Shown: positions 7,754 to 13,569, counted from the stretch's first letter. The stretch is 37,205 nucleotides of DNA from Candidatus Gastranaerophilales bacterium (GCA_944325825.1 CALVBP010000017.1:1-37205), one strand, 5' to 3'. Numbers and translations are program-made. Notes: a model not told the origin generated them from the letters alone.

Positions 7754-8668
7754 TCACTGTTCACTATCTATCAACTCCATCAGTTTAGTATAAATATTAT
7801 CCGCAGATTGGTTTTCTTTAACAAGTTTTACATTATAAATTCTATCATCCGGCGCCCAGTAATAAATCATCTTATCTTCATAAAATACGGAAACCAGTGG
7901 AACATCTAATGCACATCCAAGATGCATTGTTCCGGTATCAATACTTATAAGAGCCTTACATTTTTTCAGAACACATGCCATTTCATAAATTGTTGTTTTA
8001 TTAACAAGATTTACAAACCTGCATTCTGCCTGCTCAAGAGATGCAGCATAATCTTCCGCGGCAGAGCCTGCTCCGAAGTAAATTACTTCGTACTCCGTAT
8101 TATTAAGCTTTTTGATAAGTCCAATCGCTGTCTCAATCGGCATGTCTTTTTCCTTGCGTTTACTTAAGGTACAAAGCCCGATATATTTTTTTGTCGGATC
8201 TAAACCTAATTTTGCAGGCAGCTCATCAGAAACAACATATCTTATCGGAAGGTTTTTAAGCGGTTTATCCGTAATTCTTGATAAAAGCCCGAGAGATCTC
8301 TTTTGAACAGGTTCTATAGGACTGTTTTTAGGTAAGCATACTACTTTTTTTGACCCGATAAGCTTTGAAATTATACTATTTCTAATATTTGTATAAGTTA
8401 CAAATGAGCAGTAAGGTTTTTTATAAGGGAATTCAAGTACAAATTTTACAATTCCTTTAAAATCTTTTTGTTCTCCTTTTTTATCGAAGATTACAACATC
8501 ATCAACATCTTTTTGGTATTTTGCAACCTCGTAAAAAGGCTTATCCACAACCATTACAACTTTTGAATCGGGATAAATAAGTTTGATATTCTGGCAGAGG
8601 GTATTGCAAAGAAGTACATCTCCAAAATACGCTGTATTGAATACTAAAAAAACTTTACTTTCAGCCAT
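7754..8668 (-). CDS. glycosyltransferase family 9 (heptosyltransferase-like)
   Basis: The 304-aa protein shows the GT-B pattern of ADP-heptose:LPS heptosyltransferases. It starts with VFLVFNTAYFGDVLLCNTL (the family's GDxxL loop), has IGLCTLSKRKEKDMP in the middle, and the C-terminal donor-site motif SIDTGTMHLGCALDVPLVSVFY. It probably adds a sugar to a lipid-linked or surface glycan. AGGAG lies 4-5 nt before the ATG. The last residues (DSEQ) and the stop codon fall in a 13-mer that recurs at 1673-1685, so its 3' end has been shaped by a repeat. It has its own promoter downstream of the five-gene polysaccharide operon. Confidence 0.87.
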   Translation of the reverse strand: MAESKVFLVFNTAYFGDVLLCNTLCQNIKLIYPDSKVVMVVDKPFYEVAKYQKDVDDVVIFDKKGEQKDFKGIVKFVLEFPYKKPYCSFVTYTNIRNSIISKLIGSKKVVCLPKNSPIEPVQKRSLGLLSRITDKPLKNLPIRYVVSDELPAKLGLDPTKKYIGLCTLSKRKEKDMPIETAIGLIKKLNNTEYEVIYFGAGSAAEDYAASLEQAECRFVNLVNKTTIYEMACVLKKCKALISIDTGTMHLGCALDVPLVSVFYEDKMIYYWAPDDRIYNVKLVKENQSADNIYTKLMELIDSEQ

Positions 8669-8727: not shown

Positions 8728-9285
8728 TTAAAGAAATTTGCCTTCCGCTTTAAGTTTCTTGAAGTGCTCTATATCTCTGTATTTAAAGACCTTAGCAGGA
8801 TTACCGCCCGCAATAGCGTACGGTGGTATCTCTCCGTGTACGACGCTGCCGCCTTGAATAATAGCACCTTCACCTATTTTTGTACCGGGAAGAATCATAA
8901 CCCTTGAACCTAACCAGACAAAGTCTCCGATTTCAATATCTTTGTAAATATAAGTCTCATCATAAGAGATTTTTTCACCTTCATAGTTGTGGTTCTGAGC
9001 AATGATAAGGCATTCTACTCCGGAGTAGAAATAGTTTCCGATAGTAACTTTACCTAATCCATGAATATGAAAACCGTTCAAATTAACATTATTTCCCAGT
9101 ACAGTATTTTTATTAACAGTTGAATATCCCCTAACAAACAGATTTTCTCCTATTTTTTGCGCAGTTTTAAAAATCTGTCTGCCATACCATAAGGTTAATA
9201 GTTTTAATCTGTAGCGCTTTCTCAAGTCTCTTTTTAAAATAAAACATGTTAATAATTTACAAAGCAAATCAATTATTTTATCCAT
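8728..9285 (-). CDS. hexapeptide-repeat (left-handed beta-helix) acyltransferase
   Basis: The 185-aa protein belongs to the xenobiotic/maltose/colanic-acid acetyltransferase type. An N-terminal helical segment (1-50) leads into hexapeptide turns: IGENLFVRGYS, TVLGNNVNLNGFHIHG, KVTIGNYFYSGVECLI, IEIGDFVWLGSRVMILPG and KIGEGAIIQGGSVV. The usual C-terminal GNPAKVFKYRD closes it. The loop AQNHNY carries the likely catalytic histidine. It would transfer an acetyl or other acyl group to a sugar. The start is the ATG at 9285, one base after the preceding stop codon, so translation is probably coupled. It is the last gene of the polysaccharide operon. Confidence 0.88.
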   Translation of the reverse strand: MDKIIDLLCKLLTCFILKRDLRKRYRLKLLTLWYGRQIFKTAQKIGENLFVRGYSTVNKNTVLGNNVNLNGFHIHGLGKVTIGNYFYSGVECLIIAQNHNYEGEKISYDETYIYKDIEIGDFVWLGSRVMILPGTKIGEGAIIQGGSVVHGEIPPYAIAGGNPAKVFKYRDIEHFKKLKAEGKFL

Positions 9286-9286
9286 A

Positions 9287-10123
9287 TTACCAGCCAAGAT
9301 TATAAAAAATTAATTCAAGTTCTTTTTGCAAAACTGTAATTCTTTCTTTTTTATTTGAATATTCTGCCATAACGGATTTTACTGCATCAGATGTCAATTC
9401 ATATCGACGCATATCCAGAGGTTCAGGTTTTTCCATCCCAAAAGCGGAATAATAATCTTTGAATTTATAATCACCGCCTGAAATATTATTGCTGAGGATA
9501 ATTTGTCGATTAGGAATTCCGTAACTGTCTGCAAAAATTAAACCATGGAGAGAAGAAGAAAGTATACATTCACATTCACAAAGCTCTCTAGCAACACTTT
9601 TTGCATCCTGCTGAATATCAATGATTTTATATTCTTTAGCAGGCAGATTGATATTTAACCAGCTCTGTTTATCCGCATAATGCGGAATTATTCCAAGCTT
9701 GTATTTTTTTACAGAACTCATCGGATAAATTTTTGATATTAAAATCCCCGGATCTGCAAGTACGCAATTATCTAATTTCATGCCGGTTATCTTTTCAATT
9801 CTTTGTTTGGATAATTCTCCCCGAAGCGCTAATACCTCCAATTTCCCTTTGTATTTTTCTTCACCGCAGGCAGGAGAAATAAATCCAGCACCTGCAATAA
9901 CGACAGTTTTATCAGAAAATCCTGCGCCATTCATTATTTTTTCCAAATTCGAACCTACGCATAAAAGAGTAGCTTTATTAACCTCCCTTGTTCTGGAGTA
10001 GTTAATATTAAAATGCTTCATTAAATCAACATTAAATATATCTCCGGCATTTTTATTCTTCTTTCCGCCAAAGTAATATAATTTGTATTTTTTAATAAAC
10101 AATTCTTTTATAAAGTTCAACAT
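9287..10123 (-). CDS. polysaccharide pyruvyl transferase family protein
   Basis: The 278-aa protein matches the pyruvyl transferase fold (CsaB/WcaK-like), which adds ketal-linked pyruvate to sugars of surface polymers. Visible parts are YYFGGKKNKNAGDIFNVDL near the N-terminus, LRGELSKQRIEKI, NCVLADPGIL, the central KLGIIPHYADK, and the C-terminal SSSLHGLIFADSYGIPN, the family's best-conserved block. I prefer the ATG at 10123 to a GTG two codons earlier. It follows the PP-loop gene by 16 nt and its stop is one base before the acyltransferase start. Confidence 0.82.
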   Translation of the reverse strand: MLNFIKELFIKKYKLYYFGGKKNKNAGDIFNVDLMKHFNINYSRTREVNKATLLCVGSNLEKIMNGAGFSDKTVVIAGAGFISPACGEEKYKGKLEVLALRGELSKQRIEKITGMKLDNCVLADPGILISKIYPMSSVKKYKLGIIPHYADKQSWLNINLPAKEYKIIDIQQDAKSVARELCECECILSSSLHGLIFADSYGIPNRQIILSNNISGGDYKFKDYYSAFGMEKPEPLDMRRYELTSDAVKSVMAEYSNKKERITVLQKELELIFYNLGW

Positions 10124-10139
10124 AAGCACTAAATTCCAT

Positions 10140-11351
10140 TTATCGCCTTTTTATTTTAATACTAATGCCTAATATTCTAATTTTTATATATACTTTTCTT
10201 TCAGGGTAAGATTCGTCATAAATAAAATGTTTTAACCAAACTACAGCTTTGTAGAATATCGACTCATAAAACGGAATTTTAGCCCTCATTGCTCTATAAA
10301 TTGGTTCCATCATCGGTGCTTTTCTGTAGTGTTTTTCAAATAAAAACCAATAAAATTTAAATTTGTGTTTTTTATAATATTCAATATCAAAAACTTTTGC
10401 AAACTTCTCTAATTTCCCTATAGCATCTAACGCTAATATTACCTTCATACATTTAGAACAATGACTACAATTTTCTGCGTTGTCAGAACAAACGTGTAGA
10501 TATTTTTGAGCAACAGCAGAATCTGCAATTGATGCAACTTTTTCTAATTTATTTTTCTGCATACCTTCAGATATAATGTTCAGATTTTTATTATTGAAAC
10601 AATAATAAAGGAGCAACGCATATTCATCAGAATCGTTGACAGATGAGTTTAGGATACTGAATACATTTATATCAGTATTACTTGATGCGTAATAATATGC
10701 TTTCCATAATTTTTGCAAGCAACAAATTGCAAATATTGAGGAGAAATCATGCGTATATGCATGATTTCGAGGAAACATGTCAGCCAGATTTGAATTCGAT
10801 ATTATCAAGGGTAGATTATATTCTTTTGCAATTAGCATTGCTCTTTCAACACATTTATCATAAATATGTTTTTGAAAACTTGCATTTCCTCCGAATGAAC
10901 CTACATTAAACAAACATAGGTGTGTAAGCTGCATATCTTTATATGGAGATTGATAAGTACTAATTATAGTATTAAATGAATCAGTACCGCCGGATACACC
11001 TGTACCAACTGCTCCTGCATTTTGTAAAATTTCATCTGTCATAGGGGCAGTTACCTTAATCAAAGATATATGTTCATCATATTTTACCAACAATGGAATT
11101 AAGTTTTCATTTAGTTTATATGACAACTCCTCTGTTATAGGAATTTCTGATACAATATCATGCCCGTTTTTCAGAGCAAACGGCAAAACACCGATTGCAA
11201 ACGCATCAATCCTTTCGGTACATAAATATTGTTTATATTCCTTATCAACTTCAAACCATAATGTATCCAGTTTCCCGTCAATCGAATAATCAAAATTTAA
11301 TCTGGCTTTATCTCCGCTTTCTGTTATATATATTGAATTTAATTTAATCAT
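10140..11351 (-). CDS. PP-loop ATPase (QueC-like) protein in a polysaccharide operon
   Basis: The 403-aa protein has a PP-loop SGGTDS at residues 120-125, the AMP-forming signature of the ATP-pyrophosphatase/QueC/asparagine-synthetase superfamily. It also has a four-cysteine site C288-x6-C295-x2-C298-x2-C301, close to the zinc site of QueC. HAYTHDFSS (197-205) looks like a further active-site block. Residues 1-110 form an extra N-terminal domain with no recognised match. The most likely chemistry is adenylation of a carboxylate or amide transfer on a sugar or small molecule. True queuosine synthesis is unlikely given the neighbours. It starts inside the end of the SGNH gene (ATGATTAA overlap) with a strong AGGAAGGGGGG upstream. 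Confidence 0.72.
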   Translation of the reverse strand: MIKLNSIYITESGDKARLNFDYSIDGKLDTLWFEVDKEYKQYLCTERIDAFAIGVLPFALKNGHDIVSEIPITEELSYKLNENLIPLLVKYDEHISLIKVTAPMTDEILQNAGAVGTGVSGGTDSFNTIISTYQSPYKDMQLTHLCLFNVGSFGGNASFQKHIYDKCVERAMLIAKEYNLPLIISNSNLADMFPRNHAYTHDFSSIFAICCLQKLWKAYYYASSNTDINVFSILNSSVNDSDEYALLLYYCFNNKNLNIISEGMQKNKLEKVASIADSAVAQKYLHVCSDNAENCSHCSKCMKVILALDAIGKLEKFAKVFDIEYYKKHKFKFYWFLFEKHYRKAPMMEPIYRAMRAKIPFYESIFYKAVVWLKHFIYDESYPERKVYIKIRILGISIKIKRR

Positions 11352-12204
11352 TTACCCCCCTTCCTCTTTTTTCCCATATAAGCTGAGTTAATTTTTCGGC
11401 ACCTTGTAACTTTAAATGATGTCCGTCACAAAAATCCGAATGTTTAAATTCTTTGCTGTTATAAAAATTAAGGATTTTTACATTTTTATATCCTTCACAA
11501 ACTTTATACAGTTTTGAAAATAATTCTCTGGATTCCGGAAGATAGGAACGATATTCATCCTCTGCCGGAGGAATAACTATATAAAGATTTTGATTATTTA
11601 TTGAAGTTTCATCAATTAGTTTTACAAGAAAATCTATCTGATTATTTTTTCTTTGATTATTCTTATAATGTTTTAATGCCTGCTCTTTTATTTTCTTACG
11701 GTTAAACTCATCCTCCGGATATTCTGACATATTGCCGCAATAATTCTCAAATACGGGCTTTTCTTTATTTATATATCTTTCAATTTCTTTGCGGTAAGAT
11801 TTTTCCAGCTTATACAAGCCCTGCTTTTGAGCAATTTCTTTGTCCTGATAGTCAATATCAAATAATAGTTTGTACAAAATACAGTATTTAGACATTTTTG
11901 TCCTTATCAGAATATGTCCCGGGGTAAAAACCGAAAAAGAAAGAATAATATCTTTGACAAACTCTGTATTATATTTTTTATAAAGATTATACGCATAATA
12001 CAAATCCTGCGAAGGAGAAGCAAAATTAAACTCACCTTCTCCCGCACGGAAACCGCATGCCAGATGGGATGAACCAAGTATAAGAGTATTAATACTGCTT
12101 GCATTTACCGTCATATAGCCATACTTCTTTTTCACAAGAGTTTTTAAAGAAGGGATTTTATGCCTCAGCCTGTCTATTATCTCCTGTACAAAATTAATCC
12201 GCAT
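11344..12204 (-). CDS. SGNH/GDSL-like hydrolase or acyltransferase, divergent
   Basis: The 286-aa protein has weak but ordered SGNH features. The first is LILGSSHLACGF near residue 41 (block I, with S45 or S46 as nucleophile candidate). The second is YIVIPPAEDEYRS in the middle. The third is the C-terminal SDFCDGHHLKLQGAEKLT, which matches the block V D-x-x-H dyad. Such proteins de-acylate or acylate surface sugars. There is no signal peptide, so it would act in the cytoplasm or at the inner membrane face. The start is uncertain: ATG at 12204 (overlapping the upstream GT2 by 11 nt) or ATG at 12219. Confidence 0.65.
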   Translation of the reverse strand: MRINFVQEIIDRLRHKIPSLKTLVKKKYGYMTVNASSINTLILGSSHLACGFRAGEGEFNFASPSQDLYYAYNLYKKYNTEFVKDIILSFSVFTPGHILIRTKMSKYCILYKLLFDIDYQDKEIAQKQGLYKLEKSYRKEIERYINKEKPVFENYCGNMSEYPEDEFNRKKIKEQALKHYKNNQRKNNQIDFLVKLIDETSINNQNLYIVIPPAEDEYRSYLPESRELFSKLYKVCEGYKNVKILNFYNSKEFKHSDFCDGHHLKLQGAEKLTQLIWEKRGRGVND

Positions 12205-13063
12205 AAACCCGCCTGTCATCAAACTCTTGATTTACTCTTAATATTTTTATCCCGAATATATAATAATCTTTGTAATATTTATAATGCTTTATAGCCCAGA
12301 GGAAATGTCTTTCTTTGTAAATTACCCAATCTTTAATTTTAATATTGTGTTCCTCCGCAAAATTAATTAAATCAAGAGAAGTCGTTACTTTATCTCTTAA
12401 CAGATTTCCGCCTGTTCTTTGTTTAACAGTTGAATGCGGATTGGAAACATAATGATATACCGCCTCAGGAACAGTAACAGCAGAAGCACAGGCATATATT
12501 GCTCTTATTGTATATCCGCCGTCTTCATAATACACACCTTCCTGAAATTTTAAATCTTTTATTAACTCTCTCTTATACAGTTTTCCGACAGTTTCATAAT
12601 GGTTATCTATAGCTTTTATAATCTCCGCAGCATTATTATAAACAGCTTTCTCTTTTAAATTTAAATGCGGCTTAATTTTATCTGTTTTATCACGGGTCAT
12701 TGATGCTGCCGCCATATTAACCTTGTTTTGAAGTATGGCATTATACATATTTTCAAGATATTCTTCCGAAACCCAATCGTCCGCATCAACAAATGTTACA
12801 TATTCGCCCTGTGCAATTTCTAATCCCCTGTTTCTTGCCGCACCCTGTTTTTGGTTAGTCTGGGTTATTACTCTTATTCTGTTGTCTTTGTTTGCATATT
12901 CTTTTATTATATCCGGAGTTTTATCGGTTGAGCCGTCATCAATAACAATAATTTCTATATCTTTTAGACTCTGGCTAACAAGTGAATTTAGACATTTTGA
13001 AATATATTTTTCTGTATTATATGCCGGAATAATAACGGAAACTAAAATTAAACCTTTTTCCAT
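12194..13063 (-). CDS. glycosyltransferase family 2
   Basis: The 289-aa protein carries the standard GT-A signatures: VSVIIPAYNTEKYISKCL, IEIIVIDDGSTDKTPDII, GAARNRGLEIAQGEYVTF and the metal-binding VDADDWVSEEYLENM. The rest is typical of capsule and O-antigen glycosyltransferases. It is the first gene of a tight, partly overlapping five-gene operon read from a near-consensus promoter at 13108-13136. It probably transfers a sugar onto a growing surface polysaccharide. The donor and linkage cannot be read from the sequence. Confidence 0.92.
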   Translation of the reverse strand: MEKGLILVSVIIPAYNTEKYISKCLNSLVSQSLKDIEIIVIDDGSTDKTPDIIKEYANKDNRIRVITQTNQKQGAARNRGLEIAQGEYVTFVDADDWVSEEYLENMYNAILQNKVNMAAASMTRDKTDKIKPHLNLKEKAVYNNAAEIIKAIDNHYETVGKLYKRELIKDLKFQEGVYYEDGGYTIRAIYACASAVTVPEAVYHYVSNPHSTVKQRTGGNLLRDKVTTSLDLINFAEEHNIKIKDWVIYKERHFLWAIKHYKYYKDYYIFGIKILRVNQEFDDRRVYAD

Positions 13064-13171: not shown

Positions 13172-13199
13172 CAATGTTTATTAATCAACGTAAGCATTG
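13172..13199. promoter_or_regulatory. imperfect inverted repeat, candidate operator
   Basis: caatgttta (13172-13180) and taagcattg (13191-13199) are reverse complements at 8 of 9 positions, separated by 10 nt (centre spacing 19 nt, about two helical turns). It lies in the leader of the XRE gene, just downstream of the shared divergent promoters. It is a plausible site for a dimeric HTH protein. No binding evidence is available. Confidence 0.35.
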
Positions 13200-13242
13200 T
13201 ATTTTTATCAAATGTAATCAGAAGGGGGATGGGCGCATAATT

Positions 13243-13569
13243 ATGTATTTCAATGATAAATTCTTTATTGCCAAAAAAATCAGATTAGCCAGAAAGCAAG
13301 CACGGCTTACTCAAGCCGAGCTATCTGAAAAAATCGGTATAAGCTCAAAACAATTATCCAGAATCGAAACCGGCGATTACATCCCGTCTTTACCGACATT
13401 TTTAAAAATAATAAGCGTACTCCCCATTGATATCAAGGATTTCGGAATCGAAAACGCTCCAAAAACCAATCCTATTAGGGAAAAATTAAACAAAATCTTT
13501 GCCTGTGCCACAGACAAAGAACTTGTACTCTTTTTTAAAATTGCACAAGCAATTGTCGGCCAAGAATAA
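13243..13569 (+). CDS. XRE-family helix-turn-helix transcriptional regulator
   Basis: The 108-aa protein has a Cro/C1-type HTH over about residues 8-62: IRLARKQARLTQAELSEKIG, then the recognition helix SSKQLSRIETGDYIPSLPTFLKII. A short helical C-terminal tail (70-108) may serve dimerisation. I use the ATG at 13243, which gives the usual domain start. The open frame extends back to an ATG at 13174, and a strong purine run (agaaggggg) lies 15-20 nt upstream beside a 3-codon ATG-GGC-GCA-TAA mini-frame. It is divergent from the polysaccharide operon and probably regulates it or itself (inference). Confidence 0.85.
   Translation: MYFNDKFFIAKKIRLARKQARLTQAELSEKIGISSKQLSRIETGDYIPSLPTFLKIISVLPIDIKDFGIENAPKTNPIREKLNKIFACATDKELVLFFKIAQAIVGQE

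Follow-up and report, generated by a model that had tools for sequence, protein, structure and literature searches.

A QueC-like PP-loop ATPase family associated with polysaccharide pyruvyl transferases in a glycan-decoration operon of a Candidatus Gastranaerophilales bacterium

The stretch of DNA analysed here (the window; 37,205 nucleotides of Candidatus Gastranaerophilales bacterium, GCA_944325825.1 CALVBP010000017.1:1-37205) carries a tightly packed five-gene operon on its minus strand, from position 13063 to 8728. It encodes, in this order, a family 2 glycosyltransferase (GT2; 12194-13063, PF00535, E 1.6e-42), an SGNH-hydrolase-like protein (11344-12222), a QueC-like PP-loop ATPase of 403 aa (10140-11351), a polysaccharide pyruvyl transferase (9287-10129, PF04230, E 1.8e-12, 48.2 bits against a cut-off of 25.3) and an O-acetyltransferase-like hexapeptide acyltransferase (8728-9297, PF00132, E 1.9e-13). 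Of the four junctions between neighbouring open reading frames (ORFs), three are overlaps (29, 8 and 11 bases) and the fourth is a gap of 10 bases between the PP-loop and pyruvyl transferase genes. An earlier interpretation made from the DNA alone (the sequence-only reading) had described five overlapping or nearly overlapping genes; all five minus-strand ORFs exist, and Pfam confirmed the GT2, PS_pyruv_trans and Hexapep assignments. The SGNH-like class was assigned by motif reading alone, from a GSSH near the N-terminus and a DGHHL near the C-terminus. The hexapeptide acyltransferase had WbbJ as its best NCBIfam match, every match lying under the cut-off. Neither the SGNH-like nor the PP-loop protein had a Pfam match at E ≤ 0.1. 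The PP-loop protein, which is delimited by its ORF, a family alignment, a predicted structure and profile comparison, is encoded by a single-copy gene and is the main subject of this work; homologues in other genomes, with identities of up to about 50%, indicate that the ORF is a real gene.

The PP-loop itself corresponds to SGGTDS at residues 120-125 (positions 10977-10994, minus strand; family form S-x-G-x-[DS]-S), and a QueC-type zinc-cysteine motif, C288-x6-C295-x2-C298-x2-C301 (10449-10490, minus strand), was recognised in the sequence, in the family alignment and in the alignment with the QueC profile. In a 23-row alignment, S120-x-G122-x-D124-S125, N188, S223, K271 and the cysteine motif were among the invariant or nearly invariant positions, S-x-G being invariant and both D-S and the zinc cysteines nearly invariant. 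Comparison of the family core with QueC of the same phylum by hhalign gave a probability of 96.3 and an E-value of 1.5e-9 over 182 columns that included the ATP loop and the cysteines, hhalign E-values referring here to a single comparison and not to a database search. With PF06508, two family proteins encoded elsewhere in the phylum scored 16.5-17.4 bits, against a cut-off of 22, and a PDB sequence search with the family profile returned weak PP-loop matches only. An AlphaFold2 model was built from a 7-sequence alignment (predicted local distance difference test, pLDDT, 79.6; predicted template modelling score, pTM, 0.78). Its best structural match was QatC (Z 13.0 over 301 residues, covering model residues 1-366), followed by Cap9 (Z 12.8), QueC (3bl5; Z 11.8 over 175 residues, root mean square deviation 3.8) and then other PP-loop enzymes. 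A Foldseek search of the PDB was negative at E ≤ 0.001, so that the evidence for this structural assignment comes from VIA-align and from viral QueC models, which the model matched with an E-value of 2.6e-4. Thus, judged by its pyrophosphate loop, its zinc motif and its predicted fold, the core of the protein is a member of the QueC superfamily, and the earlier description of a QueC-like PP-loop/zinc protein was borne out by both the profile comparison and the model.

The QueC superfamily also includes the WbpG-type PP-loop enzymes of O-antigen loci (PMC13329287), which give a glycan role a precedent, and the PP-loop protein might accordingly act in the manner of WbpG or PseA, turning a sugar N-acetyl group into an acetamidino group. 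However, the family core aligned with WbpG-type amidotransferases of the same phylum at a probability of 8% (61 columns), whereas the comparison with QueC gave 96% (182 columns); moreover, the operon contains no HisH-like glutaminase and the genome no WbpG/WbuX match above cut-off. We consider a WbpG-type reaction rather unlikely, and given the very weak profile match the protein was rejected as a WbpG-like amidotransferase.

The QueC substrate motifs YxQxHxxE, VPxRN and YPDC (PMC13329287) were not present at the aligned positions in the family. The genome encodes a separate QueC (G000:C15:27175-27795, E 2.6e-49), so that a queuosine role for the PP-loop protein is unneeded; with this separate QueC present and the deazaguanine motifs replaced, the protein was set aside as an improbable queuosine enzyme of this genome. 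Asparagine synthetase was likewise rejected, the window protein having no Pfam match. A full-length match to a characterised queuosine or asparagine enzyme, which would have spoken against the sequence-only reading, was not found.

Residues 1-111 form an N-terminal domain (positions 11019-11351, minus strand), delimited by family conservation and predicted structure. Whereas this domain had been regarded as an unusual fusion, its approximately 110 residues are present in all family members and thus constitute an integral domain; QatC, too, carries an N-terminal extension (PMC13279940). The predicted order of secondary structure elements is beta-beta-beta-alpha-alpha-beta-alpha, an RNase H-like order, and a structural search with this domain alone returned weak RNase H-like matches (Z at most 6.1) among which QatC was not listed. 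The whole-model alignment is suggestive of an N-terminal domain shared with QatC, but the sequence likeness is not significant: the profile score between the two N-terminal domains was 14.9, and shuffled controls scored 10.9 on average and 18.0 at most.

The resemblance to QatC bears on a different type of activity, in which the PP-loop protein would conjugate a small carboxylate to the N-terminus of an operon partner such as the pyruvyl transferase or the SGNH-like protein. Such a protein modification has been proposed for QatC, which needs its partner QatB, and shown for Cap9 (PMC13279940). QatC is the best whole-model structural match, and the family, like QatC, has lost the QueC deazaguanine motifs. 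Nevertheless, the sequence match to QatC is weaker than that to QueC (hhalign probability of 21% for the QatC core), none of the operon proteins was recognised as QatB-like, and the linked pyruvyl transferases described below are of several subtypes without an obvious common N-terminal Gly motif, all of which makes protein modification an improbable explanation. A role in QatABCD defence was rejected: QatA, QatB and QatD were not recognised beside the window gene, and the QatC profile PDLC02214 (PADLOC) had no match in 23 members at E ≤ 1.

Homologues come from the GTDB family to which the window genome belongs, from Bacilli and Clostridia metagenome-assembled genomes of rabbit gut, from Paracoccus yeei plasmids, from larger genomes of the same phylum, from a Nostoc plasmid and from three IMG/VR contigs. 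Just two clear members were found among 398 genomes of the phylum of the Clostridia genome, the second of them on a 3.8-kb contig without usable context, and phage GenBank records gave no family match. One related genus (g2) encodes fusion proteins that combine the PP-loop domain with a DD-carboxypeptidase-like domain (PF00768, lowest E 1.8e-25; L018:7931-9793, L019:2834-4705, L020:9585-11456, L021:8293-10155 and L022:8981-10849). In all five of these fusions the serine of SxxK is replaced by glycine and KTG by KYG or KVG, and the domain is probably a non-catalytic binding domain in a protein without an evident signal peptide. The window protein passes no Pfam, NCBIfam or PADLOC cut-off, and in the literature searched no paper joins PP-loop/QueC proteins to pyruvyl transferases, one genome report containing both terms. 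We conclude that the family is a previously undescribed, glycan-linked branch of the known QueC-like superfamily, real and not ordinary, yet not categorically new.

The sequence-only reading had proposed a search for co-occurrence with pyruvyl transferases, and when this was carried out the association proved to be far above chance and above a glycan-gene control. The link to pyruvyl TRANSFERASES was evident in 10 of 17 PP-loop loci (15 genomes of the phylum), which have PS_pyruv_trans within 5 kb; at seven of these loci the distance is no more than about 320 bases. The expectation computed from gene number and genome size was 0.14 loci (P 1.7e-17), a statistic that treats loci as independent, so that kinship among them lowers the true significance. 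In ten of these genomes, 8/11 PP-loop loci lay within 5 kb of PS_pyruv_trans as compared with 13/149 GT2 genes (Fisher p 3e-6), the 149 control genes being the best-scoring part of a longer list. No canonical QueC gene was located within 5 kb of PS_pyruv_trans in the genomes with known PS_pyruv_trans positions. Furthermore, PS_pyruv_trans lies near the PP-loop gene in L003 (Bacilli) and L004 (Clostridia), and about 1.6 kb from it in the viral contigs L045 and L047. In a third viral contig, L046, a partial PS_pyruv_trans domain (E 2.4e-4, just below the Pfam cut-off) is fused to the PP-loop domain; a Paracoccus protein that aligns with L046 has the same fusion architecture, its N-terminal part not being a significant Pfam match. 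Linked members sit in deep, separate branches of the tree, whose label counts are slightly off: L063, labelled as lacking a pyruvyl transferase, has PS_pyruv_trans 1.6 kb from its PP-loop gene. This spread across branches, together with the fusions, argues against one inherited arrangement.

Could the linkage reflect mere common membership of variable surface-glycan islands, with the PP-loop protein doing something unrelated, for instance modifying nucleotides or tRNA? Such islands collect unrelated genes, and 7 of the 17 loci have no nearby pyruvyl transferase. On the other hand, GT2 genes, many of which occupy the same type of island, are far less often near pyruvyl transferases, fusions occur in two groups, and three viral contigs retain the pair, one of them within a compact glycan gene set; we therefore hold a coincidence of this kind to be very improbable.

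At the L051 locus an asparagine-synthase-like gene (L051:5681-7486, PF00733, 601 aa) abuts the PP-loop gene and lies between it and the pyruvyl transferase gene; the catalytic Cys typical of class II glutaminases is missing from the N-terminus of its product. At the L016 locus, the gene two places upstream of the PP-loop gene (L016:4433-5491, PF14305, E 9.7e-50) codes for a TupA-like ATP-grasp ligase, likewise an amide-forming type of enzyme.

We propose that the PP-loop ATPase and the pyruvyl transferase serve one pathway and that the operon makes a decorated glycan, an explanation to which, taken as a whole, we assign a probability of about 0.5. The GT2 protein, and probably a family 9 glycosyltransferase (GT9) encoded downstream, would add sugars, and the PS_pyruv_trans protein would place a pyruvate ketal, and hence a carboxylate, on a sugar. 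The PP-loop protein would then adenylate a carboxylate of the glycan precursor, most likely that of the pyruvate ketal, for attack by ammonia or an amine, converting it to an amide. The SGNH-like and hexapeptide proteins would handle acyl groups. QueC and Cap9 both make an amide from a carboxylate that they activate with ATP (PMC13279940, PMC13329287). That the PP-loop protein uses ATP and binds zinc is predicted from its conserved residues, and amide formation from the chemistry of related enzymes, whereas the pyruvyl carboxylate is suggested as substrate by gene linkage only, and a uronic acid of the same glycan could serve instead. No recognisable glutaminase is encoded in the operon, which fits a QueC-type use of free ammonia or an amine.

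Alternatively, the amine could be something other than ammonia, the PP-loop protein being a ligase that joins a glycan carboxylate to an amino acid, an amino sugar or a protein amine, yielding an amide in the polymer or in a side chain. Cap9 shows that the QueC fold can take an amine as nucleophile (PMC13279940), and in G178 the PP-loop gene has a gene for a TupA-like ATP-grasp ligase at a distance of one gene. Such a ligase is indistinguishable by sequence from the proposed amide-forming enzyme. In the window operon, no gene could be recognised as a dedicated donor or acceptor of the amine, and we regard this variant as unlikely.

Several observations weigh against amidation of a pyruvyl group by the PP-loop protein. 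The seven unlinked loci belong to G087, G071, G408, G237 (two loci), G223 and G274 (one of its two); some of these lie on short contigs, and they include the genus g2 member with its DD-carboxypeptidase-like fusion, which is located outside glycan loci. The Clostridia member (L004:7902-9119) retains SCGVDS but only two of the four zinc cysteines. In neither PS_pyruv_trans fusion does the domain extend as far as the histidine motif, so that the fusions are no proof of joint catalysis. More generally, the enrichment would also be expected if both enzymes merely belonged to the same type of glycan pathway and acted on different atoms, and the substrate and product assigned to the PP-loop protein derive from linkage and family chemistry.

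Three viral contigs, one of them a large phage, carry family members near or fused to a pyruvyl transferase. The 204-kb IMG/VR contig IMGVR_UViG_3300044646_001937 (L127) contains a compact set of PP-loop, pyruvyl transferase and glycosyltransferase genes, flanked by genes that on reading of their sequences, not by search, look virion-structural and include a collagen-like repeat. Use of this set by the phage, for instance in decorating virion proteins, is possible. A bolder and rather doubtful extension is that a pyruvyl transferase and a QueC-like ATPase form a widespread, unrecognised module that adds a pyruvate ketal to a sugar and then turns the carboxylate of this ketal into an amide (or nitrile), and that large phages carrying this module, once apparently beside virion structural genes, may decorate their own proteins with it. 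To our knowledge, a pyruvyl-ketal amide or nitrile glycan decoration has not been reported.

The operon has the features of an accessory segment and is absent at this position in most relatives of the genome. Its GC content is 0.29-0.31, against 0.36-0.39 nearby. The PP-loop gene was present in none of eight same-genus genomes in a first survey and in 9 of 190 other genomes of the GTDB family, one of these carriers (G116) having only a weak broken match. Downstream, the next gene encodes a GT9 heptosyltransferase-like protein (7754-8668, minus strand, PF01075, E 1.3e-20), which is probably part of the same segment, and is followed on the same strand by MurF. The site around MurF was compared in six same-genus relatives. 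In G458, a hexapeptide transferase (72% identity), a GT9 gene (88%) and a different GT2 gene (52%) lie near MurF, a glycan segment that yielded no homologue of the PP-loop protein or of the pyruvyl transferase; an MnmE-like gene, identified by sequence reading, adjoins MurF or is one gene off in G448, G453, G449 and G446, and in G385 MurF is followed by other genes. As these relatives differ in the genes beside MurF, the operon is apparently an acquired, exchangeable insert, as expected of surface-glycan genes. At the head of the operon, a divergent gene for an XRE-type helix-turn-helix regulator (13174-13569, plus strand, PF01381, E 3e-14) is a possible regulator of the operon; a divergent XRE-type gene, identified by sequence reading, also adjoins the PP-loop gene of G087 (L015:10295-10618).

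The PP-loop protein ends in a C-terminal tag, IRILGISIKIKR (10146-10181, minus strand), found by pattern search also on other glycan enzymes, and the GT2 protein of the window ends in YYIFGIKILR. A pattern like I-x-[IF]-[LF]-G-I-[KS]-[IL]-x-[IF]-K-[KR] marks one end, C- or N-terminal, of glycan enzymes that are otherwise unrelated, its carriers including the window PP-loop and GT2 proteins, L015 and six genes at the L016 locus. Eleven terminal matches were counted as against 2.6 in shuffled sequences, with a pattern composed after examples had been seen. The tag may serve as a signal for docking or for association with the membrane.

The known roles of QueC-like proteins lie in queuosine synthesis, DNA modification and anti-phage defence, and a 2026 survey of PF06508 mentions neither pyruvyl transferases nor polysaccharides (PMC13329287). 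If true, a branch tied to pyruvyl transferases would extend QueC chemistry to surface glycans, predict a specific modification detectable by mass and provide proteins currently annotated as hypothetical with a function. Since cell-surface proteins are anchored by pyruvylated glycans (PMC10435577), masking or altering the negative charge of these glycans would have clear biological consequences.

Compared with known systems, the window pyruvyl transferase belongs to the CsaB-type ketal-pyruvyl transferases (PF04230); it is shorter and divergent but keeps the Arg and His of the phosphoenolpyruvate (PEP) region, the Arg of LRGE and the His of SSLHG aligning with the region of the PEP-binding residues R148 and H308 of CsaB (PMC10435577). 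The N-acetyl sugar amidotransferases WbpG/PseA/WbuX (TIGR03573) are, like the PP-loop family, PP-loop enzymes encoded in surface-glycan loci, and TIGR03573 had no match at E ≤ 1 in the 13 members scanned. DUF6395 (PF19932), for which a literature search found no function or paper, gave subthreshold matches in 7 of 13 members, in the best cases across the cysteine region, but no scanned member reached its 25-bit cut-off, the highest score being 21.5 bits for a protein encoded in another genome of the phylum. Cap9 of type IV CBASS (cyclic oligonucleotide-based anti-phage signalling system) shares the QueC-like core and the same proposed carboxylate activation; unlike the family, it consists of the core only, retains the canonical QueC active-site motifs (PMC13329287) and acts in a defence context. 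QatC is of similar length to the family proteins, and both have extensions round a QueC core and have lost the deazaguanine motifs (PMC13279940). With QueC itself (7-cyano-7-deazaguanine synthase, PF06508), the family has in common the PP-loop ATPase core and the C-terminal zinc-cysteine motif, whereas it differs in its approximately 110 extra N-terminal residues and in its location in glycan loci.

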